This document shows, one piece after another, positions 1,595-28,736 of a stretch of 64,000 nt of DNA. The stretch is taken from positions 34,274-98,273 of the forward strand of contig NZ_NBYK01000003.1 of NCBI RefSeq assembly GCF_002197985.1. Reading direction: 5' to 3'. Made by a program: the position numbers and the translations under genes. The notes under the pieces were generated by a model. It was not told the origin of the DNA and did no database searches. It worked only from the letters and a program-made list of their open reading frames with translations. Source of the DNA: Halopseudomonas aestusnigri. Its GTDB lineage: Bacteria > Pseudomonadota > Gammaproteobacteria > Pseudomonadales > Pseudomonadaceae. Each line of letters opens with the position of its first letter. Within the stretch, counting starts at the first letter, position 1.

Positions 1595-1733
1595 GAGCTT
1601 CAAGCTGCAAGCTGCAAGCAAAACCCGTGCGGGGTCCCATCGCGGGGGATTATTCAGGCGGAGGTAGCTGCTCGACGCTACGGACACTCTCAGGACGCCG
1701 CCGCCCATCCGGTTCTGCTTGCAGCTTGCCGCT
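1595..1733. repeat. Heptad-repeat element 1
   Basis: The left arm, 1595-1619, consists of CAAGCTG-type 7-bp units. The right arm, 1717-1733, has GCTTGCA-type units in inverted orientation. About 95 bp of unrelated GC-rich DNA lies between. It fills the gap between the convergent YceI and gcdR genes and ends 7 bp before the gcdR stop codon. Confidence 0.8.
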
Positions 1734-1739
1734 AACAAC

Positions 1740-2654
1740 TTACATCTTGAGGCTTGCCGCCTCCTTAACCCAGGCGTGCGCCTGCTGCAGAATCCAGTCG
1801 CGGAACGCCAGCAGCGCAGCCGATTCGGCCTTGCGCTCGGGGATCACCAGGTAGTAACCGTTGTCGGTTTCGAAGCTGCGTGGGCAGGGGCTGATCAGGC
1901 GGCCGTCTGCCAGTTCCTGGCGGATCAGAAATGGCGGGATCAGGGCGATACCCATGCCGTGCATCGCGGCTTGCGCGAGCATTGAGAACAGTTCCAGTCG
2001 GGTACCGTTGAGGTCGTGCTCGACGCGCATGTCGGCGGCGGCGAACCACTGGCGCCAGGCGTAGGGGCGGGTGGTCTGCTGCAGCAGTGGCAGTTGGGCG
2101 ATGTCCTCGGGCGTCAGCTCGCGGGCAGGAGCGATCAGCGCCGGGCTGCACACCGGAATTGGCGCCTCGGGCATCAGGTAGTGGGTTTGGGTGCCAGACC
2201 AGTCACCATCGCCGAAGTAGATCGCGGCATCGAATTCGGTATCGGCGAACAGGAACGGCCGCGTACGGTTGGTCATATTGACGGTGATCTGCGGATGCTG
2301 GCGCAGAAAGTGACTGAGCCGCGGCAGCAGCCACTGGGTACCGAAGGTGGGGACCAGGGCCAACTCCAGCGTGGCGGTGCCCTGATTACCCATCACCGAC
2401 AGGGTGTCGCGCTCGACAGCATCCAGCCGGCTGGCGATTCGACGGCTGTATATCTGTCCGGCGTCAGTCAGTTTCACACCGCGGCGGGTACGGCGAAACA
2501 GTTGAATATCAAGGAATGCTTCGAGGTTGGCGATCTGGCGACACACCGCGCTCTGGGTCAGCGAGAGTTCCTCGGCAGCCTTGGTGAAGCTCTCATGGCG
2601 AGCGGACGACTCGAAGCAGATCAGGGCCTGGGTCGGGGGGATCTTGCGGCGCAT
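1740..2654 (-). CDS. gcdR: LysR-family regulator, GcdR-type
   Basis: A 304-residue LysR-type regulator of the GcvA-like subgroup. The winged helix-turn-helix occupies residues 1-65 (FTKAAEELSLTQSAVCRQI recognition region) and a periplasmic-binding-like effector domain follows. I chose the ATG at 2654 because AAGGAG lies about 9 nt upstream; the longer frame from 2696 would start inside a repeat. It is divergent from gcdH. The same arrangement in P. putida and P. aeruginosa encodes GcdR, the glutarate-responsive activator of gcdHG, so the assignment rests on subgroup and context. A candidate operator lies at 2757-2776. Confidence 0.85.
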   Translation of the reverse strand: MRRKIPPTQALICFESSARHESFTKAAEELSLTQSAVCRQIANLEAFLDIQLFRRTRRGVKLTDAGQIYSRRIASRLDAVERDTLSVMGNQGTATLELALVPTFGTQWLLPRLSHFLRQHPQITVNMTNRTRPFLFADTEFDAAIYFGDGDWSGTQTHYLMPEAPIPVCSPALIAPARELTPEDIAQLPLLQQTTRPYAWRQWFAAADMRVEHDLNGTRLELFSMLAQAAMHGMGIALIPPFLIRQELADGRLISPCPRSFETDNGYYLVIPERKAESAALLAFRDWILQQAHAWVKEAASLKM

Positions 2655-2674
2655 GGGGCGGGCTCCTTCGGAGC

Positions 2675-2752
2675 AGCGATAAGCTATAAGTATCAAGCGG
2701 CAAGCTGTCCGTGCGCTGAGCCGGGGTTGCTTGCAGCTTGCGGCTTGTCGCT
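2675..2752. repeat. Heptad-repeat element 2
   Basis: Inverted arms 2675-2706 and 2729-2752 are built of CAAGCGG/GCTTGCA-like 7-bp units, with a 22-bp centre. It lies in the divergent gcdR-gcdH promoter region, starting 20 bp upstream of the gcdR start codon, so it should be part of the gcdR leader. Confidence 0.8.
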
Positions 2753-2756
2753 ATGC

Positions 2757-2776
2757 AATTGTTCGGAGTTCCAATT
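2757..2776. promoter_or_regulatory. Candidate GcdR (LysR-type) binding site
   Basis: AATTG-N10-CAATT is a dyad with the T-N11-A geometry favoured by LysR-type regulators. It lies between gcdR and gcdH, 120 bp before the gcdH start. Assignment to GcdR is inference from position. Confidence 0.45.
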
Positions 2777-2895
2777 TAGCACAGGTATCTGCATAAAAGA
2801 CGCTTGTTTGCTGGTTTCTCTGTGCGTAGAGTCACTGACACATTATGGTTCCCCAGTGGAACCCCATCACCCGTAAAACGAATATCGGAGAGCTC

Positions 2896-4080
2896 ATGGC
2901 CGCATCCAAGGCAAGTTTCAACTGGGAAGATCCGCTGCTGCTGGATCAGCAACTGACTGAAGAAGAGCGCATGGTGCGTGACAGTGCACGCCAGTACTGC
3001 CAGGACAAACTCATGCCGCGGGTGCTGAACTCGTTCCGTAACGAGCAGACCGACGTGGAAATTTTCCGCGAAATGGGCGAGCTGGGCCTGCTGGGCGCAA
3101 CCATTCCGACCGAGTACGGCGGAAGCGGCTTGAACTATGTCTGCTACGGTCTTATCGCCCGTGAAGTCGAGCGCGTTGATTCCGGTTACCGTTCGATGAT
3201 GAGCGTCCAGTCCTCGCTGGTGATGGTGCCGATCAACGAATTTGGCAGTGAAGAGCAGAAGCAGAAGTATCTACCCAAGCTGGCCAGTGGTGAGTTCATC
3301 GGCTGCTTCGGCCTGACCGAGCCGAACCACGGCTCCGATCCGGGCTCCATGGTCACCCGTGCACGCAAGACCGAGGGCGGTTACCTGCTCAAGGGTGCCA
3401 AGATGTGGATCACCAACAGCCCCATTGCTGACGTGTTCGTGGTCTGGGCAAAAACCGACGACGACGTCATCCGTGGCTTCATTCTGGAGAAGGGCTGGAA
3501 AGGTCTGAGCGCGCCGGCGATCAAGGGCAAGGTTGGCCTGCGTACCTCCATTACCGGTGAGATCGTGATGGAAGACGTGTTCGTTCCGGAAGAAAACATG
3601 CTGCCGCACGTGACCGGTCTGAAAGGTCCGTTCACCTGCCTGAACTCTGCCCGTTACGGCATCTCCTGGGGTGCGCTGGGTGCGGCCGAGTTCTGCTGGC
3701 ACACCGCTCGTCAGTACACCCTGGACCGTCTGCAGTTTGGTCGTCCGCTGGCGCAGACTCAGCTGGTACAGAAGAAGCTGGCTGACATGCAGACCGAAAT
3801 CACCCTGGCTCTGCAAGGCTGCCTGCGTCTGGGCCGCATGAAGGACGAAGGTACTGCCGCGGTGGAAATCACCTCGATCATGAAGCGCAACTCCTGCGGC
3901 AAGTCGCTGGACATCGCCCGCGTTGCCCGCGACATGCTGGGTGGCAACGGTATCTCCGACGAGTACGGTGTGATCCGTCACGTGGTCAACCTGGAAGTGG
4001 TCAACACCTACGAAGGTACCCACGACGTCCACGCGCTGATCCTCGGCCGTGCGCAGACCGGCCTTCAGGCGTTTTTCTAA
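2896..4080 (+). CDS. gcdH: Glutaryl-CoA dehydrogenase
   Basis: A 394-residue FAD enzyme of the acyl-CoA dehydrogenase family that oxidises and decarboxylates glutaryl-CoA to crotonyl-CoA in lysine/glutarate breakdown. The N-terminal helical domain, the middle flavin/substrate segment ([17 protein letters not shown]) and the C-terminal domain are present. The catalytic glutamate lies in [13 protein letters not shown], as in known GcdH. The ATG at 2896 gives the family's usual start ([13 protein letters not shown]) and follows CGGAGAG; the in-frame ATG at 2845 lacks support. It is divergent from gcdR and upstream of gcdG. Confidence 0.95.
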
Positions 4081-4090
4081 CGCCTGAAGG

Positions 4091-4247
4091 CAGCTGCAAG
4101 CTTTAAGCTGCAAGCGACAAGCCGTTCTGAGTTGGTTCGGCTTGTCGCGTTCTCCTCACGCTGCATTGGCGTACCGCTAGTACCCTTATCTTCGTATCCC
4201 GCACGGCCAGCTTGTGGCTTGAAGCTTGCCGCTTGAAGCTTGGAGCT
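4091..4247. repeat. Heptad-repeat element 3
   Basis: The left arm 4091-4124 and right arm 4209-4247 carry 7-bp CAAGCNN/NNGCTTG units. A nested perfect 11-bp hairpin pairs 4114-4124 with 4138-4148. The right arm runs into the gcdG start region, and its GGAG at 4242-4245 is the only plausible ribosome-binding site for gcdG. Confidence 0.8.
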
Positions 4248-4253
4248 AAAGAC

Positions 4254-5432
4254 ATGAGTGCATTATCCGGTTTGCGCGTCCTCGACCTGTCCCGCGTGCT
4301 GGCTGGCCCATGGGCCGGGCAGATGCTGGCGGATCTGGGCGCGGATGTGGTCAAGGTCGAAAGGCCGGGGGCGGGTGACGATACCCGTGCCTGGGGGCCG
4401 CCGTATCTGCGTGATGCCGATGGTCGCGATACCTCCGAGGCGGCGTACTTTCTGTCGGCCAACCGCAACAAGCGCTCGATTACCATCGACTTTACCCAGC
4501 CCGAGGGGCAGCAACGGGTGCGTGAGCTGGTGCAGCGCGCAGATGTGCTGATCGAGAACTTCAAGGTTGGCGGGCTGGCGGCCTATGGGCTGGATTACCA
4601 GAGCCTGCAGGCGCTCAATCCGCGCCTTATCTACTGCTCGGTGACCGGCTTCGGCCAGCAGGGTCCTTACGCCAAACGCGCAGGCTATGACTTCATGATT
4701 CAGGCCATGGGTGGCCTGATGAGCATCACCGGCAAGGCCGATGGGGAAGAGGGGGCAGGGCCGGTCAAGGTCGGCGTGGCGCTGACCGATATTCTCACCG
4801 GGCTCTACGCCAGCAATGCCATTCTCGCCGCACTGGCTGAGCGTGAGCGAAGCGGTCAGGGCCAGTACATCGATCTGGCGCTGCTGGATGTGCAAATCGC
4901 CTGTCTCGGCAATCAGGCGCTGAACTATCTCACCACGGGCGTGCCGCCCAAGCGGCTGGGCAACGCTCATCCGAACATCGTTCCGTATCAGGATTTCCCG
5001 ACCGCCGATGGTGATTTCATCCTGACGGTGGGTAACGACGGCCAGTTCCGCAAGTTCTGCGAGGTGGCGGGGCACCCGGAGTGGGCGACTGATCCGCGCT
5101 TTGTCAGCAACGCCTCACGGGTTGCCAACCGCGCCGAGCTGATTCCGTTGATCCGCCAGGTGACGGTATTTCGCACCACCGCCGAATGGATTGCAGCGCT
5201 GGAGCAGGCGGGTGTGCCCTGCGGGCCGATCAATGATCTGGCGCAGGTGTTTGCCGATCCGCAGGTGCAGGCGCGGGGTACGCGCATTCGCATGGCCCAC
5301 CCGCTGGCCGGTGAGGTGGACCTGGTCGCCAACCCGATCAGACTGTCGCGCACGCCGGTTGACTACCGGCGCCCGCCGCCGCTGCTGGGTGAGCACAACA
5401 GCGAGGTGTTCGCTGACTGGCTCAGCGACTGA
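4254..5432 (+). CDS. gcdG: Class III CoA-transferase (glutarate CoA-transferase)
   Basis: A 392-residue CaiB/BaiF (family III) CoA-transferase. The family opening (LSGLRVLDLSRVLAGPW) and the ADVLIENFKVGG and YCSVTGFGQ motifs are visible, and the catalytic Asp lies in the AGYDFMIQAMGG segment. Next to gcdH it most likely activates glutarate with succinyl-CoA, feeding glutaryl-CoA to GcdH. The start at 4254 is chosen by homology; its GGAG lies inside heptad-repeat element 3. The last 11 bp overlap the convergent lldR gene. Confidence 0.88.
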   Translation: MSALSGLRVLDLSRVLAGPWAGQMLADLGADVVKVERPGAGDDTRAWGPPYLRDADGRDTSEAAYFLSANRNKRSITIDFTQPEGQQRVRELVQRADVLIENFKVGGLAAYGLDYQSLQALNPRLIYCSVTGFGQQGPYAKRAGYDFMIQAMGGLMSITGKADGEEGAGPVKVGVALTDILTGLYASNAILAALAERERSGQGQYIDLALLDVQIACLGNQALNYLTTGVPPKRLGNAHPNIVPYQDFPTADGDFILTVGNDGQFRKFCEVAGHPEWATDPRFVSNASRVANRAELIPLIRQVTVFRTTAEWIAALEQAGVPCGPINDLAQVFADPQVQARGTRIRMAHPLAGEVDLVANPIRLSRTPVDYRRPPPLLGEHNSEVFADWLSD

Positions 5433-6198
5433 TCGGCCGCTCGCGTCTCTGCGCGCGGGCCAGCCGTCTGCTTTCCTCCTCCCGCTCTTCCAGCACGTCC
5501 TGCACGTAGCTGATGTGCTCGCCGGCGATGCGTCTGGCATCGTCGGCGCGGCCCTGCATGATGGCGTCGAACAGCGCCTGATGCTGCCCGACCAGCATCC
5601 GCCGGGTTTCGCTGCGCAGCGCATACATGCCGCCGATATTGGTTACCACATTGCGTTTGAGCAGGTCGAACAGGCCGCGAATGGTGTGCAGCAGCACCAG
5701 GTTGTGGCTGGCTTCGGCAATTGCCAGGTGAAAGCGCGCGTCGGCGGCGCCTTCCTCGGCGCGTGACGCCTTGCCCTCGCGGGCGTAGCAGGCCTGCAGG
5801 GCGTCAAAGGCGCTCTGCAGGTGCTGGCGGTCCAGATCGGTAGCGCGCAGCGCGGCGTAATAGGCGCAGTCGGCTTCCAGCGTGTGGCGGAACTCCAGCA
5901 GGTCTCGGTGCGCTTCCGGATGACCTTCGAGCAGGCTGAGCAGGGGATCGCTGAAGCTTGAACCGAGTGAATCGCTGACATAGTTGCCGCCGCCCTGGCG
6001 GCTGATCAGCAAGCCCTTGGCGACCAGTTTCTGTACTGCCTCGCGCAGCGACGGGCGGGACACGCCGAACTGCTCGGCCAGCGCGCGCTCGGCCGGCAGG
6101 CGCTGCCCCGGCTGCAGCGTGCCTTCAAGAATCATGGTTTCCAGTTGCTCAACGATGTTGTCCGACAGTCTGCGCTGTCGAATCTGACCTACTTCCAT
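5422..6198 (-). CDS. lldR: GntR/FadR-family lactate-responsive repressor
   Basis: A 258-residue regulator. An N-terminal GntR winged helix (PGQRLPAERALAEQFGVSRP, residues about 28-47) is followed by a FadR-type helical effector domain (FCD). AAGGAAC precedes the ATG at 6198. Divergent from lldP-lldD-dld, it matches LldR of Pseudomonas and E. coli, which represses the operon until lactate binds. A GntR palindrome lies 11 bp upstream of its own start, suggesting autorepression, and a second lies before lldP. Its 3' end overlaps gcdG by 11 bp. Confidence 0.93.
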   Translation of the reverse strand: MEVGQIRQRRLSDNIVEQLETMILEGTLQPGQRLPAERALAEQFGVSRPSLREAVQKLVAKGLLISRQGGGNYVSDSLGSSFSDPLLSLLEGHPEAHRDLLEFRHTLEADCAYYAALRATDLDRQHLQSAFDALQACYAREGKASRAEEGAADARFHLAIAEASHNLVLLHTIRGLFDLLKRNVVTNIGGMYALRSETRRMLVGQHQALFDAIMQGRADDARRIAGEHISYVQDVLEEREEESRRLARAQRRERPISR

Positions 6199-6208
6199 TG
6201 TTGTTCCT

Positions 6209-6221
6209 TTGGTCTGACCAA
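6209..6221. promoter_or_regulatory. LldR operator, lldR-proximal
   Basis: A 13-bp palindrome, TTGGTC-T-GACCAA, sits just upstream of the lldR start codon. It resembles the FadR-subfamily core TNGTNNNACNA, with a one-base centre between the GGTC/GACC arms. The position fits autoregulation. Confidence 0.65.
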
Positions 6222-6347
6222 TCGCCTGTAGAGGGTAACCAGCATGACCTTTACAGGCAACCCGTCAGGATTGATCTATACCAAAGTCTAGCGTTATGGG
6301 TTTGACATGGCTCTGGTGCTTTTTTAATCTGGTCATTCATTTTTGTA

Positions 6348-6364
6348 AATTGGTCTTACCAATT
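6348..6364. promoter_or_regulatory. LldR operator, lldP-proximal
   Basis: AATTGGT-CTT-ACCAATT is a perfect 7-bp inverted repeat that contains the TNGTNNNACNA core and closely resembles the E. coli lldPRD operator. It lies 38 bp before the lldP start codon, where bound repressor would block transcription. Confidence 0.85.
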
Positions 6365-6401
6365 GGTGCTCGACCGCCAATAACAACTACAGGAGCGCTC
6401 C

Positions 6402-8096
6402 ATGTCTTCCGGTTTCCTTGCCCTCATGGCTTTTGCCCCGATCCTGCTTGCAGGTGTATTGCTGATCGGTCTGCGCTGGCCGGCGCGTCGCGCCATGCCG
6501 CTGGTGTATCTGCTCAGCGCCGGGATCGCGCTGTTTGTCTGGGATATGAGTTTCAACCGGGTGCTGGCGTCGACCCTGCAGGGCCTGGTCGTCACCGTGG
6601 GGGTGCTGTGGATCATTTTTGGCGCGATACTGCTGCTGAACACCCTCAAGCATTCGGGCGGTATCACCGCGATTCGTGCCGGGTTTACCACCATCAGCCC
6701 TGACCGCCGCATTCAGGCGATTATCATCGCCTGGCTGTTTGGCTGCTTCATCGAAGGTGCGTCCGGTTTCGGCACCCCGGCGGCGATTGCCGCGCCGCTG
6801 CTGGTGGCGATCGGTTTCCCGGCGATGGCTGCGGTACTGATGGGCATGCTGGTGCAAAGCACGCCGGTGTCCTTTGGTGCGGTCGGTACGCCGATCATTG
6901 TCGGGGTCAACACCGGGCTGGATCACGCCGCGATCAGCGAGCAGCTGGCCGCTAACGGCTCAAGCTGGGACGCCTACCTGCAGCTGATCACCAGCCAGGT
7001 AGCCATCGTGCATGCGCTGGTCGGTACGGTCATGCCGCTGGTTATGGTCATCATGCTGGTGCGCTTCTTCGGCAAGGACAAGAGCTGGCGCGCGGTATTC
7101 GAGGTGCTGCCGTTTGCTCTGTTTGCCGGCCTGTCGATGACCATTCCCTATCTCATCAGCGGCCTGCTGCTCGGCCCCGAGTTCCCGTCGTTGATCGGTG
7201 GTCTGGTCGGTCTGGCAGTGGTGACCAGCGCCGCGCGTTTCGGTTTTCTGGTACCCAAGCGTCAGTGGGACTTTGCGCCCCGCGACAGCTGGCCGGAGGC
7301 CTGGATGGGTACCGTCGAGATGAAGCTGGAAGAGCTGACTGCGCGCCCCATGAGCAGCTTCCGTGCCTGGCTGCCCTACCTGCTGGTTGGTGTGCTGCTG
7401 GTGATCAGCCGGGTGTTCCCCGAGGTCAGCACCGCGTTCAAGTCGGTGGCCATCAACTTTACCGATATTCTTGGTGAGACCGGTGTCAGCGGTGGGGTTC
7501 AGCCGCTCTATCTGCCGGGCGGCATTCTGGTGATGGTGGTGATTGCGACCTTCTTCCTGCATCGCATGAAGGTCCGTGAGCTGGGCAAGGCGCTTGGCGA
7601 GTCCGGTGGGGTGCTGCTGAGTGCCGGCTTCGTATTGCTGTTTACCGTGCCAATGGTCCGCATCCTGATCAACTCCGGAGTGAACGCGGCAGACTTGCCA
7701 AGCATGCCGATTCTGATGGCCCGTTATGTAGCCGACAGCGTCGGTGGCATCTACCCGTTGCTGGCGCCGACCATCGGCGCACTGGGCGCGTTCCTCGCGG
7801 GCTCCAATACCGTCTCGAACATGATGTTCAGCCAGTTTCAGTTTGGCGTGGCCAGCAACCTTGGTCTGTCGACCGCGTTGATCGTGGCGGTGCAGGCCGT
7901 GGGGGCTGCTGCCGGCAACATGGTGGCGATCCACAACGTGGTGGCTGCCTCAGCAACTGTGGGGCTGCTCGGCCGTGAGGGGACCACCCTGCGCCGGACT
8001 GTCTGGCCGACTCTGTACTATGTGCTGATGACTGGTCTGATTGCGCTGTTTGCTGCCTATGTGCTGGGTGTCAGCGATCCGCTGATGGCTGGCTGA
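6402..8096 (+). CDS. lldP: L-lactate permease
   Basis: A 564-residue inner-membrane carrier with about 12-14 hydrophobic segments, of the LctP family, importing L- and D-lactate (and glycolate) with protons. The conserved [19 protein letters not shown] stretch (residues about 117-135) and the [14 protein letters not shown] stretch near residue 467 are typical. CAGGAG lies 8 nt before the ATG. It is the first gene of the lactate operon, directly behind the LldR palindrome. A hairpin lies between it and lldD. Confidence 0.95.
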
Positions 8097-8112
8097 TGTG
8101 TTGACTGCTCGC

Positions 8113-8135
8113 GCCCCGGCCCTGGCTGCCGGGGC
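8113..8135 (+). other. Intercistronic hairpin between lldP and lldD
   Basis: The 8-bp arms GCCCCGGC (8113-8120) and GCCGGGGC (8128-8135) have no T tract. Within an operon it could stabilise the 3' end of the lldP message or lower downstream expression. Confidence 0.5.
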
Positions 8136-8168
8136 GTTGCCCGTTGAAGAACCGATGAGAGTTTGCTG

Positions 8169-9323
8169 ATGATCATTTCTGCCTCGACCGATTACCGCGC
8201 CGCCGCCCAGCGCCGACTGCCTCCCTTTCTGTTTCACTATATCGACGGTGGGGCCTACGCCGAGCACACGTTGAAGAAGAACGTCGAGGATCTGGCCGGT
8301 ATTGCCCTGCGCCAGCGGGTGCTGAAGAACATGTCGGAGCTGAGCCTGGAAACCCGTCTGTTCGATGAAACCCTGAGCATGCCGGTAGCGCTGTCACCGG
8401 TTGGCCTGACCGGCATGTACGCCCGCCGCGGTGAAGTTCAGGCGGCGCGCGCAGCGGCTGACAAGGGCATTCCCTTTACCCTGTCGACCGTCTCGGTCTG
8501 TCCGATTGAAGAAGTCGCACCGGCGATCAGTCGCCCGATGTGGTTCCAGCTCTATGTGTTGAAGGATCGCGGATTCATGAAGAATGCGCTGGAGCGCGCC
8601 AAGGCCGCCGGCGTGACCACCCTGGTGTTCACCGTCGACATGCCGGTGCCCGGTGCGCGCTATCGTGACGCGCACTCGGGCATGAGCGGCCCGAACGCCG
8701 CGATGCGTCGTTACCTTCAAGCTGTGACCCATCCGCGCTGGGCCTTTGATGTGGGGCTGCTTGGCAAACCGCACGACCTGGGCAATATCTCCGCCTACCG
8801 AGGTAACCCGACAGGCCTGGAAGATTACATGGGGTGGTTGGGTGCCAACTTCGATGCGTCCATCTCCTGGAAAGATCTGCAGTGGATTCGTGACTTCTGG
8901 GACGGCCCGATGGTGATCAAGGGCATTCTCGATCCGGAAGACGCCCGCGATGCGCTGCGCTTTGGTGCCGACGGCATCGTGGTATCCAACCACGGCGGCC
9001 GTCAGCTCGATGGCGTACTGTCTAGCGCGCGCGCGTTGCCGGCGATTGCCGATGCGGTTAAAGGTGACCTGAAGATTCTGGTCGACTCGGGTATTCGCAC
9101 AGGTCTGGACGTCGTCCGTATGCTGGCGCTCGGCGCCGACTGCACCATGCTCGGCCGCGCCTTTATCTACGCGCTGGCGGCTGATGGTGAGGCGGGCGTG
9201 AGCAATCTGCTGGAGCTGATCGAAAAAGAGATGCGGGTGGCGATGGTACTGACCGGTGCCAAATCCATCAGTGAGATCAACGCCGATCTGCTGGTGCGTG
9301 AACTGCAGCATTTGAGCAAGTAA
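8169..9323 (+). CDS. lldD: L-lactate dehydrogenase (quinone), FMN-dependent
   Basis: A 384-residue FMN enzyme of the alpha-hydroxy-acid oxidase family. It oxidises L-lactate to pyruvate at the membrane and passes electrons to quinone. The N-terminus ([19 protein letters not shown]) matches E. coli LldD and fixes the ATG at 8169. The catalytic His lies in [13 protein letters not shown] (about residue 275), followed by the FMN-phosphate loop ([12 protein letters not shown]). It is the second gene of the operon, 12 bp before dld. Confidence 0.96.
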
Positions 9324-9335
9324 TACGGAGATAGC

Positions 9336-12143: not shown

Positions 12144-12152
12144 CGGCTCACG

Positions 12153-12180
12153 GGTGGCAGGGCGGTGCGCCGCTGCCACC
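12153..12180. terminator. Hairpin between convergent dld and acyltransferase genes
   Basis: GGTGGCAG (12153-12160) pairs with CTGCCACC (12173-12180), and an inner GGCG/CGCC stem is offset by a one-base bulge. There is no T tract. It lies between two convergent 3' ends and may serve both, though termination is not certain. Confidence 0.5.
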
Positions 12181-12191
12181 GTGGACGCGGC

Positions 12192-12857: not shown

Positions 12858-12864
12858 GGCGGCC

Positions 12865-15740: not shown

Positions 15741-15765
15741 AAACGGGGGCGCATGGCCCCCGTTT
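15741..15765 (-). terminator. Intrinsic terminator after rhlE
   Basis: A stem pairs 15741-15750 with 15756-15765. Read on the minus strand, the stem is followed by a T run (15737-15743 as A on the plus strand). It lies 12 bp past the rhlE stop codon. Confidence 0.9.
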
Positions 15766-15776
15766 CGTTTTCGACC

Positions 15777-18579: not shown

Positions 18580-18650
18580 GGCCGCAGTCTAGCGTGCTTT
18601 TGCGGTGCTCGCATGTTCGGGCTGCCGGGGGCGCCGGTAGCCCGTCCGGC

Positions 18651-19496: not shown

Positions 19497-19521
19497 TATC
19501 TCTCTACTCTTGGAAGGGCGT

Positions 19522-19624
19522 CAGCTTCAAGCCTCAAGCTACAAGCGGCAAGCAACCCCGGAAACCTTTGCCCGCCGGCGGGGCGGGCAGGGTTCTTGAG
19601 GCTTGCCGCTTGCGGCTGACAGCT
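19522..19624. repeat. Heptad-repeat element 4
   Basis: The left arm 19522-19553 and right arm 19595-19624 consist of CAAGCNN/NNGCTTG 7-bp units with a GC-rich centre. It fills the space between ahcY and metF, ends 1 bp from the ahcY stop codon and lies 25 bp upstream of the metF start. Confidence 0.8.
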
Positions 19625-19625
19625 A

Positions 19626-21029
19626 TCAGTAGCGATAGCTGTCGGGCTTGAACGGGCCTTCGACGGTAACGCCGATGTAGTCTGCCTGGGTCTTGGTCAG
19701 CTGGGTGACGACGCCACCGAAGCCCTTGACCATTTCCAGTGCGACCTCTTCGTCCAGCTTCTTCGGCAGTACCTCAACGGTCAGCGCAGCGGCTTTGCCT
19801 TCGGCAGACAGATCGGCGAACTTGCGCTCGAACAGGTGGATCTGGGCCAGCACCTGGTTGGCGAAGGAGCCGTCCATGATCCGCGAGGGGTGGCCGGTAG
19901 CGTTACCCAGGTTCACCAAGCGGCCTTCGGCCAGCAGGATCAGGTAGTCGTCATTGGTGGCGTCAATGATCTTGCCGGTGCGGTGGATCTTGTGCACCTG
20001 CGGCTTGACCTCTTCCCAGCCCCAGTTGGCGCGCATGAAGGCGGTATCGATCTCGTTGTCGAAGTGACCGATGTTGCAGACCACGGCGCGCTTTTTCAGG
20101 GCCTTGAGCATGCCGGCGTCACAGACGTTGGCGTTGCCGGTGGTGGTGACGATCAGGTCGATCTTGCCGAGCAGGGCCGCGTCGACGCAGGCGTCGGTGC
20201 CGTCGTTGATGCCGTTGTGGTACGGGGACACGACTTCGAAACCGTCCATGCAGGCCTGCATGGCGCAGATCGGGTCGATTTCGGTGACCTTGACGATCAT
20301 GCCTTCCTGACGCAGCGACTGTGCAGAGCCCTTGCCCACGTCACCGTAACCGATGACCAGCGCCTGCTTGCCGGACAGCAGGTGGTCGGTGCCGCGCTTG
20401 ATGGCGTCGTTCAGGCTGTGGCGGCAGCCGTACTTGTTGTCGTTCTTGCTCTTGGTGACCGAGTCGTTGACGTTGATCGCCGGGACTTTCAGGGTGCCCG
20501 CCTTGAGCATGTCGAGCAGGCGGTGTACGCCGGTGGTGGTCTCTTCGGTGATGCCGTGGATCTTGTCCAGCATCGCCGGGTATTTCTTGTGCAGGATTTC
20601 GGTCAGGTCGCCGCCGTCGTCCAGCACCATGTTGGCGTCCCAGGGCTGACCGTCCTTGAGGATGGTCTGCTCGATGCACCATTCGTACTCTTCTTCGGTC
20701 TCACCCTTCCAGGCAAATACCGGGATGCCGGCGGCAGCGATCGCAGCAGCGGCCTGATCCTGGGTTGAGAAGATGTTGCAGGAAGACCAGCGTACTTCGG
20801 CGCCCAGGGCAGTCAGGGTTTCGATCAGCACGGCAGTCTGGATGGTCATGTGGATACAGCCCAGAATCTTGGCACCCTTGAGCGGCTGCTCGCCGGCGTA
20901 CTTGCGGCGCAAGCCCATCAGCGCGGGCATTTCCGACTCGGCGATGATGATCTCGCGGCGGCCCCAGTCGGCCAGGCTGATGTCGGCGACCTTGTAGTCG
21001 GTAAAGGCGTTATTGATCACGGCACTCAT
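19626..21029 (-). CDS. ahcY: Adenosylhomocysteinase (SAH hydrolase)
   Basis: A 467-residue NAD-dependent enzyme that splits S-adenosylhomocysteine into adenosine and homocysteine. The NAD-binding [14 protein letters not shown] (about residue 250), [11 protein letters not shown], and the C-terminal KPDSYRY carrying the lysine and tyrosines that complete the neighbouring subunit's site are present. The insertion near residues 150-190 is typical of the longer bacterial form. The start is ATG 21029 behind GGAGA. An SAH riboswitch lies immediately upstream, so expression should rise when its substrate accumulates. Confidence 0.97.
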
Positions 21030-21080
21030 CTGATTTCTCCATTCGTGGTTGCGAATGGGCGCGGTTAAATGTCGCACGCC

Positions 21081-21132
21081 CCGGACGAGCCTGGCAGCGG
21101 CTGGAGCCGCTGCTGCAGCGCCCCTCGTCCGG
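21081..21132 (-). promoter_or_regulatory. SAH riboswitch upstream of ahcY
   Basis: Read on the minus strand, P1 is formed by CCGGACGAG (21124-21132) with CTCGTCCGG (21081-21089). P2 is a perfect 8-bp hairpin (21094-21101 with 21106-21113). The joining segments GAGGGGCGCTGCA and CCAGGCTCG match the conserved core of the S-adenosylhomocysteine riboswitch class. The aptamer ends 51 bp before the ahcY start codon. A further GGGCG/CGCCC hairpin between aptamer and gene (about 21056-21080) may be the expression platform. Confidence 0.88.
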
Positions 21133-21235
21133 AGCTGAAGTTACCCGGTCAGGCTGTTCGCACAGGAACACGCCTTGGCCGGAATCGGTTCAGAGGCGAT
21201 ACTGTCGCCCCTCCTGTATGTCGTCTGGATGAAAC

Positions 21236-21697
21236 ATGATCGCTGTTCCATACCGAAAACTCGTTGTCGCCCTGTTGCTCGGCGCGGCCCTGGCTGGCTG
21301 CAACAATGAACCTGACCCCAACTCGCACGAAGGCAAGCGCCAGGCGCTGTTCAAGCAGATGCTGCGCCAGACCGAGCCGATGAGCGGCATGCTGACCGGT
21401 CGCGTAACCCCCAGCATGGGCGAGTTCATGAACAAGGCCGATACCCTGGCCCAGCTCGCCGATCAGCCCTGGGAGCACTTCCCGACCCCGGGCGATGACC
21501 CTGAGCCGAACCGCACCAAGGACACCGTCTGGTCCGATCCCGAAGGCTTTGCCCTGGCCATTGATGACTTCAAGGCCAAGGTCGCCGACCTGCATGCCGT
21601 TACCTCTGTCGGCATCAAATCTCTGGACCAGGCAGCTGATGAGCTGCGTGCGGTCCAGCAGTCCTGCAAAAGCTGTCATGACAGCTATCGCCGCTGA
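21236..21697 (+). CDS. Cytochrome c'-like lipoprotein
   Basis: A 153-residue protein with a lipoprotein signal (lipobox LAGC, Cys about residue 21) and one haem-binding motif at the extreme C-terminus (SCKSCHDSYRR). The C-terminal CxxCH and helical body fit the cytochrome c' family, which binds NO or carries electrons. It is a plus-strand gene lodged between ahcY and metK with no obvious link to methionine metabolism. A perfect palindrome spans its stop codon, and a terminator-like hairpin lies 39 bp downstream. Confidence 0.82.
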   Translation: MIAVPYRKLVVALLLGAALAGCNNEPDPNSHEGKRQALFKQMLRQTEPMSGMLTGRVTPSMGEFMNKADTLAQLADQPWEHFPTPGDDPEPNRTKDTVWSDPEGFALAIDDFKAKVADLHAVTSVGIKSLDQAADELRAVQQSCKSCHDSYRR

Positions 21698-21710
21698 GCG
21701 GCGATAGCTG
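21682..21710. repeat. Perfect palindrome spanning a stop codon
   Basis: Arms 21682-21695 and 21697-21710 (14 bp each) surround a single central G at 21696. The TGA stop codon of the cytochrome gene (21695-21697) sits at the dyad centre. It abuts the left arm of heptad-repeat element 5. Confidence 0.75.
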
Positions 21711-21856
21711 CAGCTGCAAGCCTCAAGCTGCAAGTAAAACCCGCGCGGTTGCGAATCGTGCGGGTTTTCTTTTGGCTGAGAGAGTAACTGGATCTCAGCA
21801 GAAACACCTGGGGTCATCGCTCAACCGAGCCTGCTTGTAGCTTGTAGCTTGCCGCT
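21711..21856. repeat. Heptad-repeat element 5
   Basis: Left arm 21711-21734 and right arm 21833-21856 are made of CAAGCNN/NNGCTTG 7-bp units. The interior contains a terminator-like hairpin at 21736-21767. It lies between the convergent cytochrome and metK genes and ends 6 bp from the metK stop. Confidence 0.8.
21736..21772 (+). terminator. Terminator inside element 5
   Basis: AAAACCCGC pairs with GCGGGTTTT across a 14-nt partly paired loop, and further T-rich sequence follows (CTTTT). It should end the cytochrome transcript and, being A-rich on the other side, may also act for metK. Confidence 0.75.
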
Positions 21857-21862
21857 ACGCCG

Positions 21863-23047
21863 TCAGGCGTCCGCGCGCAGCGCGTCTGCCTTGTCTGTTT
21901 TCTCCCACGGGAAGGCCGTGAAGGTGTCACCCTTGACGGTCATCTCGAACGGGTTGCGGCCGAAGTGGCCGTACGCGGCGGTTGCGCGGTACATCGGGTG
22001 CAGCAGGTCGAGCATGCGGGTGATCGCGTACGGGCGCAGGTCGAAGTGCTGACGCACCAGCTGGATGATCTTTTCGTCGCTGATCTTGCCGGTGCCGAAG
22101 GTATTGATCGATACCGAGGTCGGCTGCGCCACGCCGATGGCGTAGGAAACCTGAATCTCGCACTTGTCGGCCAGGCCGGCAGCGACGATGTTCTTGGCGA
22201 CGTAGCGGCCGGCGTAGGCGGCGCTGCGGTCAACCTTGGACGGATCCTTGCCGGAGAACGCGCCGCCACCGTGGCGAGCCATGCCGCCGTAGGTGTCGAC
22301 GATGATCTTGCGACCGGTCAGACCGCAGTCGCCCACCGGGCCGCCGATGACGAACTTGCCGGTCGGGTTGATGTGGTACTGGGTGGCGGCGTGCAGCAGT
22401 TCGGCCGGGATCACCTTTTTGACGATCTCTTCCATCACCGCTTCGCGCAGGTCCGCCTGGCTGATGTCCGGGTTGTGCTGGGTCGACAGCACGATGGCGT
22501 CGATACCGGTGACGATGCCGTTCTCGTAGCGGCAGGTGACCTGCGACTTGGCGTCCGGGCGCAGCCAGCCGAGGCTGCCGTCCTTGCGCGCTTCAGCCTG
22601 ACGCTCGACCAGACGGTGAGCGAAGGTAATCGGGGCCGGCATCAGCACGTCGGTTTCGTTGCTGGCGTAGCCGAACATCAGGCCCTGGTCACCGGCGCCC
22701 TGATCTTCCGGCTTCTGGCGGTCAACGCCCTGGGCGATGTCCGGCGACTGCTTGCCGATGATGTTGATCACGCCGCAGGTGGCGCCGTCGTAGCCGACGT
22801 CCGAGGAGGTGTAGCCGATGTCGCAGATGACGCCGCGCACCAGGTCTTCGAGGTCGACCCAGGCGCTGGTGGTGATTTCACCGCCGACGATGGCAACACC
22901 GGTCTTGACCATGGTTTCACAGGCGACCCGGGCAAATTTGTCTTCGCTCAGGATGGCGTCCAGAACGGCGTCGGAAATCTGGTCAGCCAGTTTGTCCGGA
23001 TGGCCTTCGGACACGGATTCGGAGGTGAAAATCGAGTAATCGCTCAT
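21863..23047 (-). CDS. metK: S-adenosylmethionine synthetase
   Basis: A 394-residue enzyme that makes SAM from methionine and ATP. The start region ([20 protein letters not shown]), the ATP-site hexapeptide GAGDQG, and the [19 protein letters not shown] loop are intact. AGGAAA precedes the ATG. Its first codon overlaps the stop of the ArsR-methyltransferase gene by 4 nt, so the two are translationally coupled and transcribed from the palindrome-containing promoter near 24.1 kb. Confidence 0.97.
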
Positions 23048-24057
23048 GGGTCTTTCCTGTCCTCGGGAGAAGGGGATTCGGGTTTGGCCAGCTGCAGCAG
23101 TTGCAGCTGAAAGCCGTTACGCAGGCCGATGTACTGGCTGTTGCCCGGACGCAGTCCGGCAGCTTCGGCCCAGCGCGCAATATCATCCTGGTCAAAGCCT
23201 AGCCACAGATCGCCGCAGCTGTCGCGTACCCAGCTCTGGTCGTGGCTGCACAGCTCGGTCAGCACCAGGCTGCCACCGGGTTTGAGCAGTGCGGCAAAGC
23301 GCTTGAGCGCTTCAGCCGGCGCCGGCATGTGGTGCAGCACCATGTTGCAGACCACGCAGTCAGCCAGCGGCAATTGCTGCGGCAGCAGGGCGTCGGCGAG
23401 CAGGCAGTCCACGTTGTCGAGGCCCGCGTCCTGACACTGCTGGCGCGCGCGCTCAAGCATGGCCTCGGCGTTGTCGAGTCCGACCACGCGCTCGAAGCGG
23501 CTGGCCAGGCTGGGCAGAAAGCCGCCTTCGCCCGGACCAATCTCGATGGCCAGTTGCCGGGCCGGCAGCGGCAGGGCGTCGATCAGGGTCAGCAGCGGCT
23601 CGCGGTAGATGCCAAAGTGGGCGATCAGGTCCTGCTGCGCCGGGGTGCCATCGGCAAAACGGGCAAAGAACTGGCGTGACAGCTCGGCACGCTGGGCGTG
23701 CACTGCAGCAATGGCTTGCTGCAGTTGGGCGTCATCCGGCTGGCTGTCGAGTTCGTTCAGCAGTTGGCTGTGCAGCCGATGCCAGGGCTGTTCAGTGACC
23801 GGCAGGCTGCGACGGTAAAAGATCGAGTTGCCTTCGCGGCGCGTGCTCACCAGCCCTGCGTTTGCCAGCACCTTGAGGTGGTGGCTCATGCCGGACTGGC
23901 GCATGCCGAAGATCTGCGCCAGTTCCAGCACGCCGAACGAGTCGCTGCGCAGCACCCGCAGGATATCCAGCCGCAACACATCGCCAGCGGCCTTGCAAAA
24001 GGCGGCCAGGTCGTCGGTCTGACTGGGGGTGGCGGGAAGGTGCGCAATCTGGTTCAT
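23044..24057 (-). CDS. ArsR-type regulator fused to a SAM-dependent methyltransferase
   Basis: A 337-residue two-domain protein. Residues about 10-100 form an ArsR winged helix ([19 protein letters not shown] recognition region); residues about 150-320 form a class I methyltransferase with motif [12 protein letters not shown] and MVLHHMPAP. It is coupled to metK, and homologues lie at the same place in Pseudomonas. I infer control of the SAM cycle by SAM or SAH sensed in the methyltransferase fold, as for ArsR-family SahR regulators; whether it methylates anything is unknown. A perfect palindrome 39 bp upstream of its start is a likely autoregulatory operator. Confidence 0.88.
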
Positions 24058-24096
24058 GCGGCGCAGTTTAGTTTTGATCGGGCGTCGCCGCAACGG

Positions 24097-24120
24097 CTAT
24101 ATCAAAAAACTTTGATATAG
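24097..24120. promoter_or_regulatory. Perfect 10-bp palindrome, candidate ArsR-type operator
   Basis: CTATATCAAA-AAAC-TTTGATATAG lies between the divergent ArsR-methyltransferase/metK operon and tkt. It is AT-rich in a GC-rich setting and has the size of an ArsR-family operator. It could control metK and possibly tkt. Confidence 0.7.
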
Positions 24121-24276
24121 AGCCCTCCGTTCGTCCGGCGAGCGAACGATAACCGCACTCGGAACGGTGTTTTCATTGCCCGAAACGGCCGTTTGCGCGA
24201 AAATGCCCGCCTTCTTTTCCCGGCCAGCCGCGTGTTGCGGCAAACGCCCATGCCTTGCCAACCACAGGAGTTGTTC

Positions 24277-26277
24277 ATGCCCAGTCGTCGTGACCGTGCC
24301 AATGCCATTCGTGCCCTCAGCATGGATGCCGTGCAGAAAGCCAACAGCGGCCACCCCGGTGCGCCCATGGGTATGGCGGATATCGCCGAAGTGCTGTGGC
24401 GCGACTATCTGAAGCACAACCCGGCCAACCCGAATTTCGCCGACCGCGACCGCTTCGTGCTGTCCAACGGTCACGGCTCGATGCTGATCTACTCGCTGCT
24501 GCACCTGACTGGTTACGACGTCAGCATTGACGACATCAAGAACTTCCGTCAGCTGCACAGCAAAACGCCGGGCCACCCGGAATACGGCTACACCCCGGGC
24601 GTTGAAACCACCACCGGCCCGCTGGGGCAGGGCATTGCCAATGCCGTGGGCATGGCGATCGCCGAGAAGGTGCTGGCTGCGCAGTTCAACCGTGAAGGTC
24701 ACGAGGTTGTCGACCACAACACCTACGTGTTCCTCGGCGACGGCTGCATGATGGAAGGCATCTCCCACGAAGTCTGTTCACTGGCCGGCACCCTGGGTCT
24801 GGGCAAGCTGGTTGCCTTCTACGACGACAACGGCATCTCCATCGACGGTGAAGTCGAAGGCTGGTTTACCGACGACACGCCCAAGCGTTTCGAGGCTTAC
24901 GGCTGGCAGGTGATCCGCAATGTCGACGGCCACGATGCCGACGAGATCAAGACCGCCATTGAGACCGCACGCAAGAATACCGAGCAGCCGACCCTGATCT
25001 GCTGCAAGACCATCATCGGTTTCGGTTCGCCGAACAAGCAGGGCAAGGAAGAGTGCCACGGCGCAGCACTGGGCGAGGCGGAAATCGCTGCTACCCGTGA
25101 AGCGCTGAACTGGCCGCACGCCCCGTTCGAAATTCCGGCTGACATCAAGGCCGAGTGGGACGCCCACGAGGCCGGCGCCAAGGCCGAAGCCGCCTGGAAC
25201 GACAAGTTTGCCGCCTATCAGGCTGCCTTCCCGGAACTGGCTGCCGAGCTGCAGCGTCGTCTGGCTGGCGATCTGCCGGCTGACTTCAGCGCCAAGGCCG
25301 ATGCCTACATCGCCGAGGTGGTTGCCAAGGGTGAAACCATCGCCAGCCGCAAGGCCAGCCAGAACACCCTGAACGCCTTTGGCCCGCTGCTGCCGGAAAT
25401 GCTCGGTGGCTCCGCCGACCTGGCCGGCTCCAACCTGACTCTGTGGAAGGGCTGCAAGGGCGTGGAGTCTGCAGACGCGTCCGGCAACTACCTGTTCTAC
25501 GGTGTGCGCGAATTCGGCATGACCGCGATCATGAACGGTATCGCCCTGCACGGCGGCTTCGTGCCCTACGGCGCTACCTTCCTGATCTTCATGGAATACG
25601 CCCGCAACGCGGTGCGCATGTCGGCGCTGATGAAGCAGCGCGTGATCCACGTCTACACCCACGACTCCATCGGTCTGGGTGAAGACGGCCCGACCCACCA
25701 GCCGATCGAACAGCTGGCCAGCCTGCGCGGTACGCCGAATCTGGACACCTGGCGTCCGGCTGACGCGGTTGAGTCGGCGATTGCCTGGAAGTACGCGCTG
25801 GAGCGAGCTGACGGCCCGAGCGCGCTGATCTTCTCGCGTCAGAATCTGCCGCACCAGGAGCGCGATGCCGAGCAACTGGCCAACGTTACCCGCGGCGGTT
25901 ACGTACTGAAGGACTGCGACGGCGAGCCTGAACTGATCCTGATCTCGACCGGTTCCGAAGTCGGTCTGGCGGTCAACGCCTGGACCGCCTTGACCGAACA
26001 GGGCCGCAAGGTTCGCGTGGTGTCTATGCCGTCGACCAGCGTGTTCGACCAGCAGGACGCCGCCTACAAACAGTCGGTCCTGCCGCTGGAAGTGGGTGCT
26101 CGTATCGCCATCGAAGCCTCCCACGCCGACTTCTGGTACAAGTACGTCGGCCTCGACGGCCGCATCATCGGCATGCAGAGCTTCGGCGAATCCGCTCCGG
26201 CTGCGGCGCTGTTCGAGGAGTTCGGTTTCACCCTCGACAACGTGCTGGCAGCGGCTGAAGAGCTGTTGGAAGACTAA
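24277..26277 (+). CDS. tkt: Transketolase
   Basis: A 666-residue thiamine-diphosphate enzyme moving two-carbon units between pentose-phosphate and glycolytic sugars. The N-terminal TPP domain shows [12 protein letters not shown] and the [12 protein letters not shown] metal/TPP motif. The middle pyrimidine-binding domain has [11 protein letters not shown], where the catalytic Glu lies, and the C-terminal domain is complete. The ATG at 24277 follows CAGGAG and matches the family start ([16 protein letters not shown]); the in-frame ATG at 24193 is too far upstream. It heads the tkt-epd-pgk-fba series. Confidence 0.96.
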
Positions 26278-26280
26278 ACC

Positions 26281-26354
26281 AGCGGCAAGCCTCAAGCCTC
26301 AAGCTACAAGCGGCGCTCTGCCTGCTTGCAGCTTGCAGCTTGCAGCTTGCAGCC
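26281..26354. repeat. Heptad-repeat element 6
   Basis: This is the cleanest copy. The left arm 26281-26314 carries CAAGCCT/CAAGCTA units. The right arm 26324-26354 has four uninterrupted GCTTGCA 7-mers. The spacer is only 9 bp, so the RNA would form one long imperfect hairpin between tkt and epd. Confidence 0.85.
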
Positions 26355-26371
26355 AGGCGGAGCCTGCTGTT

Positions 26372-27409
26372 ATGTCCCACCCGCGTCCCTATAAAATTGC
26401 CCTGAACGGCTACGGCCGGATCGGTCGCTGCGTGCTGCGCGCGTTGCACGAGCGTGGTGATCTGGACGTGCGGGTGGTGGCGCTGAATGATCTGGCCGAC
26501 CGCGACAGTATTGAATACCTGACCCGTTTTGACTCCACGCACGGCCGCTTTCCGGGCGAGGTGCGGGTCAGCGGTGACTGCTTGCAGATCAACGGGCAGG
26601 CGATTCAGGTATTGCGCGAGGCGGAGCCGGAAGGGGTTGACTGGCGCGGGCTGGATATCGATCTGCTGCTGGAGTGTTCCGGCCAGTACACCACCCGTGA
26701 TCAGGGGTTGCGCTTTGTTCACGCCGGGGTGCCGCGGGTGCTGTTTTCGCAGCCGATGGCAAGCGAAGAGGCGGTGGATGCAACGCTGGTGTATGGCGTC
26801 AATCACGCCAGCCTGCCGCGCGACGCCCGTCTGGTGTCCAACGCCTCCTGCACCACCAATTGCAGCGTGCCGCTGCTCAAGTTGCTGAACGAAGTGATCG
26901 GGCTGGAGTACGTTTCCATCACCACCATTCATTCGGCAATGAACGATCAGCCGGTGATCGACGCTTACCATCACGCTGACCTGCGCCGCACCCGTTCGGC
27001 ATTCCAGTCGGTGATTCCGGTCTCGACCGGTTTGGCACGCGGCATCGAGCGGCTGCTGCCGGAGCTGGCCGGGCGCATCCAGGCCAAGGCGATTCGGGTA
27101 CCGACGGTAAATGTGTCGGCGCTGGATATCACCCTGCAGACCGCGCGCGACACCAGCGCTGCTGAAGTCAATGCGCTGCTGCGCGCGGCGGCGGAAGGTG
27201 ACTATGCGGGGCTGCTCGATTATACCGAGCTGCCCCACGCCAGCTGCGACTTCAACCACGACCCGCACTCGGCGATTGTCGATGGCAGCCAGACCCGCGT
27301 CTCCGGCCCGCGGTTGGTGAATCTGCTGGTCTGGTTTGATAACGAATGGGGTTTTGCCAACCGCATGCTGGATGTTGCCCAGTACTGGCTGGCGCAACCT
27401 GTCGAATGA
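26372..27409 (+). CDS. epd: D-erythrose-4-phosphate dehydrogenase
   Basis: A 345-residue GAPDH-family enzyme. NAD binding is shown by LNGYGRIGRCVLRAL at the N-terminus, and the catalytic Cys lies in SNASCTTNCSVPLL (about residue 155) with a downstream His in ISITTIHSAMND-like context. Position between tkt and pgk is the standard epd location in Pseudomonas; the product, erythronate-4-phosphate, leads to pyridoxal phosphate. ATG 26372 is taken because the long upstream extension crosses tkt and element 6. A GAPDH role cannot be fully excluded. Confidence 0.88.
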   Translation: MSHPRPYKIALNGYGRIGRCVLRALHERGDLDVRVVALNDLADRDSIEYLTRFDSTHGRFPGEVRVSGDCLQINGQAIQVLREAEPEGVDWRGLDIDLLLECSGQYTTRDQGLRFVHAGVPRVLFSQPMASEEAVDATLVYGVNHASLPRDARLVSNASCTTNCSVPLLKLLNEVIGLEYVSITTIHSAMNDQPVIDAYHHADLRRTRSAFQSVIPVSTGLARGIERLLPELAGRIQAKAIRVPTVNVSALDITLQTARDTSAAEVNALLRAAAEGDYAGLLDYTELPHASCDFNHDPHSAIVDGSQTRVSGPRLVNLLVWFDNEWGFANRMLDVAQYWLAQPVE

Positions 27410-27468
27410 CTTGAGCGCGGCCAACGGCGGCGCAACTGATTAACCCTTATTGAACGAAGGAGCGGGCT

Positions 27469-28629
27469 ATGACCGTACTGACCATGAATGAGCTGGACCT
27501 GAACGGCCAGCGTGTACTGATTCGTGAAGACCTCAACGTGCCGGTCAAGAACGGCAAGGTCGCCAGCGATGCGCGCATTGTTGCCTCGCTGCCCACCATC
27601 AAGCTGGCGCTGGAGAAGGGTGCTGCGGTCATGGTTTGCTCGCATCTGGGCCGTCCGGAAGAGGGCGTGTTCAGCGAAGAGAACAGCCTGGCACCGGTCG
27701 CCGCTTACCTGAGCGAAGCGCTGGGCCGTGAAGTGCCGCTGGTGCGCGACTATCTCGGCGGTGTCGAGGTCAAGCCGGGCGAGCTGGTGCTGCTGGAAAA
27801 CGTCCGCTTCAACAAGGGCGAGAAGAAGAACACCGACGAGCTGGCCCAGCAGTACGCGGCGCTGTGCGATGTGTTCGTGATGGACGCCTTCGGTACCGCC
27901 CACCGCGCCCAGGGTTCGACCCACGGTGTTGCCAAGTTTGCCAAGATCGCCTGCGCCGGTCCGCTGCTGGCCGCCGAGCTGGACGCGCTGGCCAAGGCGC
28001 TGGACAAGCCGGCCCGCCCGATGGTGGCGATTGTTGCCGGCTCCAAGGTTTCGACCAAACTGGATGTGCTCACCGCGCTGTCGGACAAGTGCGACCAGCT
28101 GATCGTTGGCGGCGGCATCGCCAACACCTTCCTCGCGGCCGCCGGTTACAAGGTTGGCAAGTCGCTGTACGAAGCCGACCTCGTTGATACCGCCAAGTCC
28201 ATTGCCGCCAAGGTCAGTGTGCCGCTGCCGGTTGACGTGGTGGTTGCCAAGGAATTTGCCGAGTCCGCCACTGCCACTGTCAAGGCCGTCGCTGACGTGG
28301 CTGACGATGACATGATTCTCGACATCGGCCCGCAGACTGCAGCGCAGTTTGGCGAGATGCTCAAAGCCTCCGGCACCATCCTCTGGAACGGCCCGGTTGG
28401 TGTCTTCGAGTTCGACCAGTTCGGCGAAGGCACCAAGGCGCTGGCGCATGCCATCGCTGCCAGTGAGGGCTTCTCGATCGCCGGTGGTGGTGACACCCTG
28501 GCTGCCATCGACAAGTACGGTGTTGCCGAACAGATTTCCTACATCTCCACCGGTGGTGGCGCCTTCCTCGAGTTCGTCGAGGGCAAGGTACTGCCGGCTG
28601 TCGAGATTCTGGAGCAGCGTGCGCGCTAA
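27469..28629 (+). CDS. pgk: Phosphoglycerate kinase
   Basis: A 386-residue glycolytic enzyme transferring phosphate from 1,3-bisphosphoglycerate to ADP. N-domain [15 protein letters not shown], the [10 protein letters not shown] loop and the C-terminal nucleotide site ([24 protein letters not shown]) are intact. AAGGAG lies 7 nt before the ATG. It is 59 bp after epd and 135 bp before fba, the latter gap holding heptad-repeat element 7. Confidence 0.97.
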
Positions 28630-28633
28630 GCAT

Positions 28634-28736
28634 AGCTGCAAGCCTCAAGCTGCAAGGGGTGACCAGCCTCAGGTCAGGCGGGTAGACTGTCGGGATCGCC
28701 CGGACAGCTTGCCGCTTGGGGCTTGTCGCTTGCCGC
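28634..28736. repeat. Heptad-repeat element 7
   Basis: Left arm 28634-28656 and right arm 28706-28736 consist of CAAGCNN/NNGCTTG 7-bp units. It lies between pgk and fba, starts 5 bp after the pgk stop, and is the last copy I could find in the window. Confidence 0.8.

Follow-up and report, generated by a model that had tools for sequence, protein, structure and literature searches.

A 64,000-nucleotide stretch of the Halopseudomonas aestusnigri genome (contig NZ_NBYK01000003.1, positions 34,274 to 98,273; "the window" below means this whole stretch) contains seven intergenic elements, each with a left arm of forward units, (CAAGCNN)n, and a right arm of reverse units, (NNGCTTG)n, around a variable centre. 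We conclude that these seven elements are probably gene-less members of a family of selfish hairpin elements, whose full members carry a PF05635 gene between inward-facing arms of 7-bp repeats. PF05635, the 23S rRNA intervening-sequence protein, is also annotated as S23 or "four helix bundle protein" and is called IVP here. The link of heptamer arms with the IVP gene is well supported, and from this link we infer that IVP has moved the dispersed copies.

The IVP gene and its heptamer arms

In the H. aestusnigri genome, one widely spaced pair of arms, located outside the window, encloses a PF05635 gene. Across the genus, 12 of 37 genomes have a PF05635 match, always a single one, and in 12 of 12 the gene sits within heptamer arms between cysD and cysN, as we named the flanking genes from their PAPS_reduct and GTP_EFTU Pfam matches. 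The cysD|cysN gap measures 453–534 bp in these 12 genomes but 24–39 bp in 19 of the 20 IVP-less congeners read (of 25 without a match); the exception, G107, has a 158-bp gap with a heptamer-like remnant at its end. At the level of the Pseudomonadaceae, PF05635 was found in 42 of 298 genomes (one of the 42 below the cut-off), and cysD or cysN peptides were present at all 36 family loci that we read, 12 from the genus and 24 from outside it. Two-unit arms stand on both sides of the gene at 21 of these 24 loci and on one side at the other three, and 35 of the 36 family loci are armed when judged by fixed tests, either for a repeat at a set lag or for an inverted match between the flanks. The full element is placed between the protein genes cysD and cysN, not within an rRNA gene.

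The abundance of arm sequence goes with the gene. CAAGC match number ranges from 0 to 383 across the 298 family genomes, 212 of which have a match, with a median of 60 in genomes with the gene (n = 42) vs 2 in those without it (n = 256; p 3.5e-15, a value inflated by related genomes), while a within-genus co-occurrence test gave p of about 1e-4. At least 100 matches were counted in 16 of the 42 IVP-positive genomes and in none of the 256 without IVP. The sequence of the arm unit also tracks the gene: on a tree of 34 family and 4 outgroup IVP rows (two broken copies excluded), the three arm-unit types GCTTG, GCTTC and GCCT require three changes including the outgroup, which is the minimum, compared with a mean of 19.3 for shuffled labels and 0 of 200 shuffles as low as three. 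GCTTC counts are 207, 134, 110 and 6 in the four GCTTC-type genomes, 0–60 in the five GCTTG-type genomes and 3–60 in the three GCCT-type genomes. Separately, a relative, G002, has about 93 AGCCTCC units in one perfect array (G002:C2:243463-244116), much longer than any arm in the window.

IVP loci in other lineages and the search for another agent

PF05635 occurs in 62 of 398 Pseudomonadota genomes, and of 30 such loci fetched, 24 contain a lag-7 array somewhere and 23 contain one within 250 bp of the gene. We also examined 80 loci from many phyla, the best-ranking of at least 583 named relatives when chosen by protein similarity only. Lag-7 arrays lie within 250 bp of IVP at 48 of these 80 named loci and on both sides at 24; lag 8 is taken up below, and every other lag between 4 and 15 was seen at 0–5 loci, save lag 14 (twice 7) at 47. 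Lag-7 density is 2.1 per kb near IVP and 0.17 further off. Inverted flank matches of at least 10 bp are present at 54 of 80 named loci and direct ones at 13 of 80; for flanks paired across different loci the inverted rate is 2.7%. At 68 of 80 the lag test or the inverted test is positive. The heptamer sequence differs widely among lineages; it is the period and the inverted layout that recur. In one other family, TAGGCAG arrays adjoin IVP and also occur elsewhere in the same genomes, an array being present in 6 of 11 searched.

At 10 loci fetched of 41 matching cyanobacterial plasmid records, lag-7 arrays were present at 10 of 10 and on both sides at 9, and among 34 IVP relatives on contigs from the viral collection (L292-L325), 25 have adjoining lag-7 arrays; either phages carry these genes or host DNA was sorted into the viral set. 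On two of the cyanobacterial plasmids (L283 and L286) the IVP gene stands between cas6 and cas4, and IVP genes have been reported in cas loci (PMC3936711; here and below, statements from cited papers apply to the parts of their text that were available).

As a control for the locus tests, we considered RAYT genes (PF01797), the movers of REPINs. That our elements are REPINs moved by RAYT is scarcely credible: PF01797 is present in 32 of 37 genus genomes and the general layout is similar, but heptamer core pairs were found at 0 of 20 RAYT loci, and in the control set, from which one cut locus (L084) was excluded, lag-7 arrays within 250 bp occurred at 0 of 19 and an inverted match at 1 of 19. 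Furthermore, G107 carries 67 CAAGC matches without a PF01797 match. RAYT/REPIN was therefore rejected as the agent. We regard it as very improbable that the elements are miniature inverted-repeat transposable elements (MITEs) of an ordinary, unrecognised transposase. Inverted arms, intergenic position, variable copy number and related centres at several places would all suit a MITE, yet no transposase was found in a genome-wide search that covered PF01797 and PF05635 only, arm units vary freely within one genome, and the link with IVP would be left unexplained.

Anatomy and position of the window elements

The first-pass annotation of this DNA had described the seven elements, all in the first 29 kb, and both reading of the sequence and motif counts bear this out, with a two-unit motif scan finding no element past 28.8 kb of the window. 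The 64 kb hold 12 CAAGCNNCAAGC and 16 GCTTGNNGCTTG two-unit pairs, as compared with 0–2 of each in 20 order-2 Markov simulations. In the whole genome there are 199 three-unit CAAGCNN matches and none of the reversed-pattern control, so that chance frequency, which that annotation had named as the outcome fatal to its family idea, is not what a genome-wide count returns. When a strict lag test was run over 340 kb of the contig that holds the window, lag 7 was registered in 11 test windows, lags 4–6 and 8–13 in 0–2, and lag 14 (twice 7) in 9; in a looser version lag 7 was again highest with 16, and lags 6, 9 and 12 reached 9–11, as expected of coding DNA. This 340 kb contains 14 inward-facing arm pairs, no outward-facing pair and 6 single arms.

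By strict count of 69 arms, 29 have four units and 20 have five, with a maximum of 12. A match of five units per arm to a pentamer was considered and is not claimed, as the mode is five in a loose count (35 of 69) and four in the strict one (29 of 69). A conserved core with free NN, as read from position counts, is partly built in, since units were accepted by their core match, and fairer evidence comes from the closest relative, G071 (95% identity in pgk), which has elements in common with H. aestusnigri; between the two genomes the arms of these elements vary in NN and in length, always by entire 7-bp units. At two places on the same contig (C3:322080-322165 and C3:186390-186430), arms continue into other 7-bp repeats, CCCAAAA x8 and CGAAAAG x3, so a 7-bp step can persist where the CAAGC core has gone.

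Such anatomy might also be produced without any help from IVP, by slippage and template switching in hairpins, with IVP genes merely lodging or surviving inside the arrays. Slippage would explain why arms change by whole 7-bp steps and why adjacent units share the same NN in 68 of 243 cases vs 0.14 expected, as tandem duplication would give, and arrays do persist in IVP-less genomes. We nevertheless consider this origin unlikely, because no IVP-less genome among the 256 reaches 100 CAAGC matches, the arm unit tracks the IVP clade, and heptamers of unrelated sequence show the same period and inverted arrangement across many phyla.

Centres are of several kinds, namely short loops, terminator-like sequence (element 5) and native-looking promoter DNA (pgk|fba), and a single common centre for all elements was accordingly rejected. 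When 33 elements were compared by centre (30 from this genome and 3 from relatives), 10 had at least one relative and 8 had at least two.

All seven window elements are intergenic, as first described, and 12 of 12 neighbouring genes have Pfam matches. Element 1 (1595–1733; left arm 1595–1619, right arm 1717–1733) lies between convergent YceI-like and LysR genes, and element 2 (2675–2752; left arm to 2705 with its outer part degenerate, right arm 2729–2752) lies between divergent LysR and acyl-CoA dehydrogenase genes. Element 3 (4091–4247; arms 4091–4122 and 4210–4247) precedes a CoA-transferase gene, and element 4 (19522–19624; arms 19522–19553 and 19594–19624) separates MTHFR and AdoHcyase genes. 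Element 5 (21711–21856; arms 21711–21735 and 21833–21856), between convergent cytochrome c' and metK genes, has at its centre a terminator-like stem-loop with a T-rich tail on the + strand (21736–21768; one found, shuffle mean 0.2). Element 6 (26281–26354; left arm 26281–26311), between transketolase and GAPDH-family genes, has a right arm (26324–26354) with the four perfect GCTTGCA units reported earlier, and element 7 (28634–28736; arms 28634–28657 and 28707–28736) lies between pgk and a class II aldolase gene. The distances to the gene ends, previously given as 1–36 bp, need correction to 1–92 bp: on the left and right they are 51/6, 20/92, 10/6, 25/1, 13/6, 3/17 and 4/28 bp for elements 1 to 7, the 92 bp becoming 143 bp if the start is the later ATG at 2896.

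Hairpin folding on both strands was obtained for 7 of 7 elements, with z from −2.6 to −7.1. The outermost right-arm unit of element 3, TTGGAGC, places GGAG just upstream of the CoA-transferase ATG at 4254 (window 4233-4256), and GGAG in the outermost right arm also occurs shortly before the cysN start codons at three other loci (L112-L114); such a GGAG is possibly the ribosome-binding site of the downstream gene. Folding, the terminator-like centre of element 5 and these GGAG sites are what would be expected if IVP and the arms formed a host regulatory system, in which IVP binds RNA hairpins at the ends of mRNAs and which owes its spread to selection and recombination, not to selfishness. Against such a system, which seems to us decidedly improbable, are the copy number of 0 to 383 among related genomes, housekeeping gaps that have or lack elements from one congener to the next, and the divergent gap of element 2. 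Of the roles offered in the first-pass annotation, the mRNA 3'-end hairpin is real as to folding but not general, as element 2 lies between divergent genes and the elements are not only 3'-end features.

Spread among relatives, proposed mechanism and weight of the evidence

A comparison of orthologous gaps, which had been proposed as a check, reveals a presence/absence pattern among relatives, so that the second outcome named as fatal to the family idea did not arise either. Of 80 gaps (four orthologous places in each of 20 congeners), 77 were readable, with two-unit arms on both sides in 24, on one side in 11 and on neither in 42, and at one orthologous gap the arm unit differs among species. 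At tkt|epd, 20–23 bp lie between the aligned flanks in five congeners vs 95 here. The G181 centre at the site of element 1 shares 87% identity over 85 bp with the centre of H. aestusnigri element 5 and 72% over 58 bp with that of H. aestusnigri element 1. Inspection by eye of tkt|epd and cysD|cysN revealed no clear target-site duplication, the outer units being degenerate. The same housekeeping gaps of congeners (L033, L035, L036, L037 and L040) hold other repeat families, of GTAGGAGC-type and CGTCATTGCGA-type palindromes, implying that these gaps collect repeats in general.

Small non-autonomous mobile units, another of the roles first offered, fit these data best: presence and absence at orthologous gaps, the range in copy number, similar centres in two gaps that are not orthologous, and a gene bracketed by alike arms are all consistent with elements that would be mobile. 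We propose that cysD|cysN is the single home of the full member in these bacteria, and that gene-less copies, which lie between genes, retain both arms with a centre that is short or has been exchanged. IVP may bind the arms in a folded single-stranded state, DNA or RNA, at a fixed 7-nt step, and new gaps may receive hairpin copies made with its help by a reverse transcriptase or by the replication or repair machinery of the host, while slippage or unequal exchange in 7-bp steps would lengthen, shorten and homogenise the arms.

Several points weigh against the conclusion that the window elements descend from an IVP-driven selfish family. Relatedness is addressed in the co-occurrence counts only by the within-genus test; 10 of 42 IVP-positive genomes have fewer than 20 CAAGC matches, 10 of 256 IVP-negative genomes have at least 30, and G024 has 280 AGCYT matches with no IVP match, although cysN was also not found in this 91% complete assembly. 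On the IVP tree the arm-type groups are weakly supported (69/3 for the G group), the GCCT-type L120 is placed apart from the remaining GCCT rows, and four bases define the GCCT label where five define the others; units are also mixed, with the GCTTC-type genomes G019 and G021 carrying 164 and 121 CAAGC matches as well. Among the named loci, 32 of 80 have no lag-7 array near IVP and 10 of 80 have lag 8, although the latter are perhaps lineages with an 8-bp step (among L174-L253). The native-looking pgk|fba centre is unexplained by simple insertion, and the spread of copies is something that we infer with no transposition, insertion junction or target-site duplication observed.

The protein adds further points of this kind. 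Two of the 12 genus IVP copies look damaged: that of H. aestusnigri (G000:C1:128226-128534) has an in-frame TAG, so the elements now in this genome may be relics of earlier activity, and the match of the G071 copy (L119) begins only at profile position 25; the Coxiella protein, too, is seemingly not made (PMC4990558). Profile searches return the solved PF05635 relatives 2gsc and 2rld, and Avd (4DWL), the accessory protein of diversity-generating retroelements, is absent from these PDB matches. The solved relative of IVP from Xanthomonas is a homopentamer of four-helix bundles, and the function of S23/IVP proteins is given as not known (PMC4990558).

In its broadest form, our proposal has what we judge to be about even chances: PF05635 proteins would represent a widespread class of minimal selfish elements, in which a ring-forming protein with no known catalytic domain, encoded within inverted 7-nt arrays of free sequence but protein-fixed step, multiplies hairpins of the same step throughout the genome, with the 23S rRNA intervening sequences (IVSs), the heptamers of Xanthomonas and cyanobacteria and the intergenic elements of Pseudomonas as its products. 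The IVP–heptamer link gives an orphan protein a testable role, binding to its own arms, and makes such elements findable in any genome by period instead of sequence. If mobility were shown, they would form a kind of selfish DNA in bacteria that is helped by a protein not recognised as a nuclease, and as copies can bear terminator-like stems and alter operon spacing, they may matter for gene expression.

Comparison with known systems

The closest general parallel is REPIN/RAYT, in which a single-copy chromosomal gene likewise stands beside its own repeats and many inverted copies are dispersed outside genes; the differences are the protein family, a repeat that here is a 7-bp step of free sequence, and the lack of arms at RAYT loci. 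Eukaryotic foldback transposons have long inverted arms of short tandem repeats around variable centres, and are thus alike in arm build but larger and eukaryotic.

Intergenic heptamers have been described in bacteria, including GGGAATC in Xanthomonas and GGGGA(C/T)T in Nostoc, with 186 and 183 arrays in two Xanthomonas genomes, mostly of four units, and 70 and 75 convergent inverted pairs (PMC4692102). Intergenic arrays and convergent inverted pairs are shared with our elements, whereas the available text of that paper makes no link to IVP. The IVP loci of Xanthomonas codiaei and Pseudoxanthomonas have GGGGACC/GGTCCCC-type arms, akin but not identical to these heptamers. The TAACTGA repeats of Beggiatoaceae, cyanobacteria and Bacteroidetes are also numerous intergenic heptamers of patchy distribution and no known agent (PMC4679880), but they are mostly direct and near start codons, and "IVP", "S23" and "intervening" are absent from the text of that paper as available. 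For the intergenic heptamers of several phyla, the agent is given as not known (PMC4679880; PMC4692102). Avd is reported to resemble PF05635 in fold and sequence (PMC10053308), yet was not recovered in our PDB search.

The nearest kin of the heptamer hairpin family is the 23S rRNA IVS. In Coxiella, the S23p/IVP gene lies within inverted repeats that form a stem, tandem heptamers (GACAGAT) stand just before the gene, and the IVS has been called selfish (PMC4990558). A PF05635 gene between inverted repeats is also what the full cysD|cysN element presents, the window copies being without the gene; the IVS, however, lies within 23S rRNA and is excised by RNase III, whereas our full element is flanked by protein-coding genes and accompanied by numerous copies without the gene. 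IVSs and heptamer repeats have both been described before; the apparently new points are the association of IVP with heptamers, the armed gene as a free-standing unit, and the copies that lack the gene. Our literature search found no link between PF05635 and heptamer arrays, but subscription journals lay outside it and an earlier report is possible. The elements are not assignable to REPINs, as arms are absent at RAYT loci, to IVSs, as they do not lie in rRNA, or to MITEs, with no duplication seen and a transposase search limited to PF01797, and we place the family in a separate class, which would include the IVS as a likely relative.

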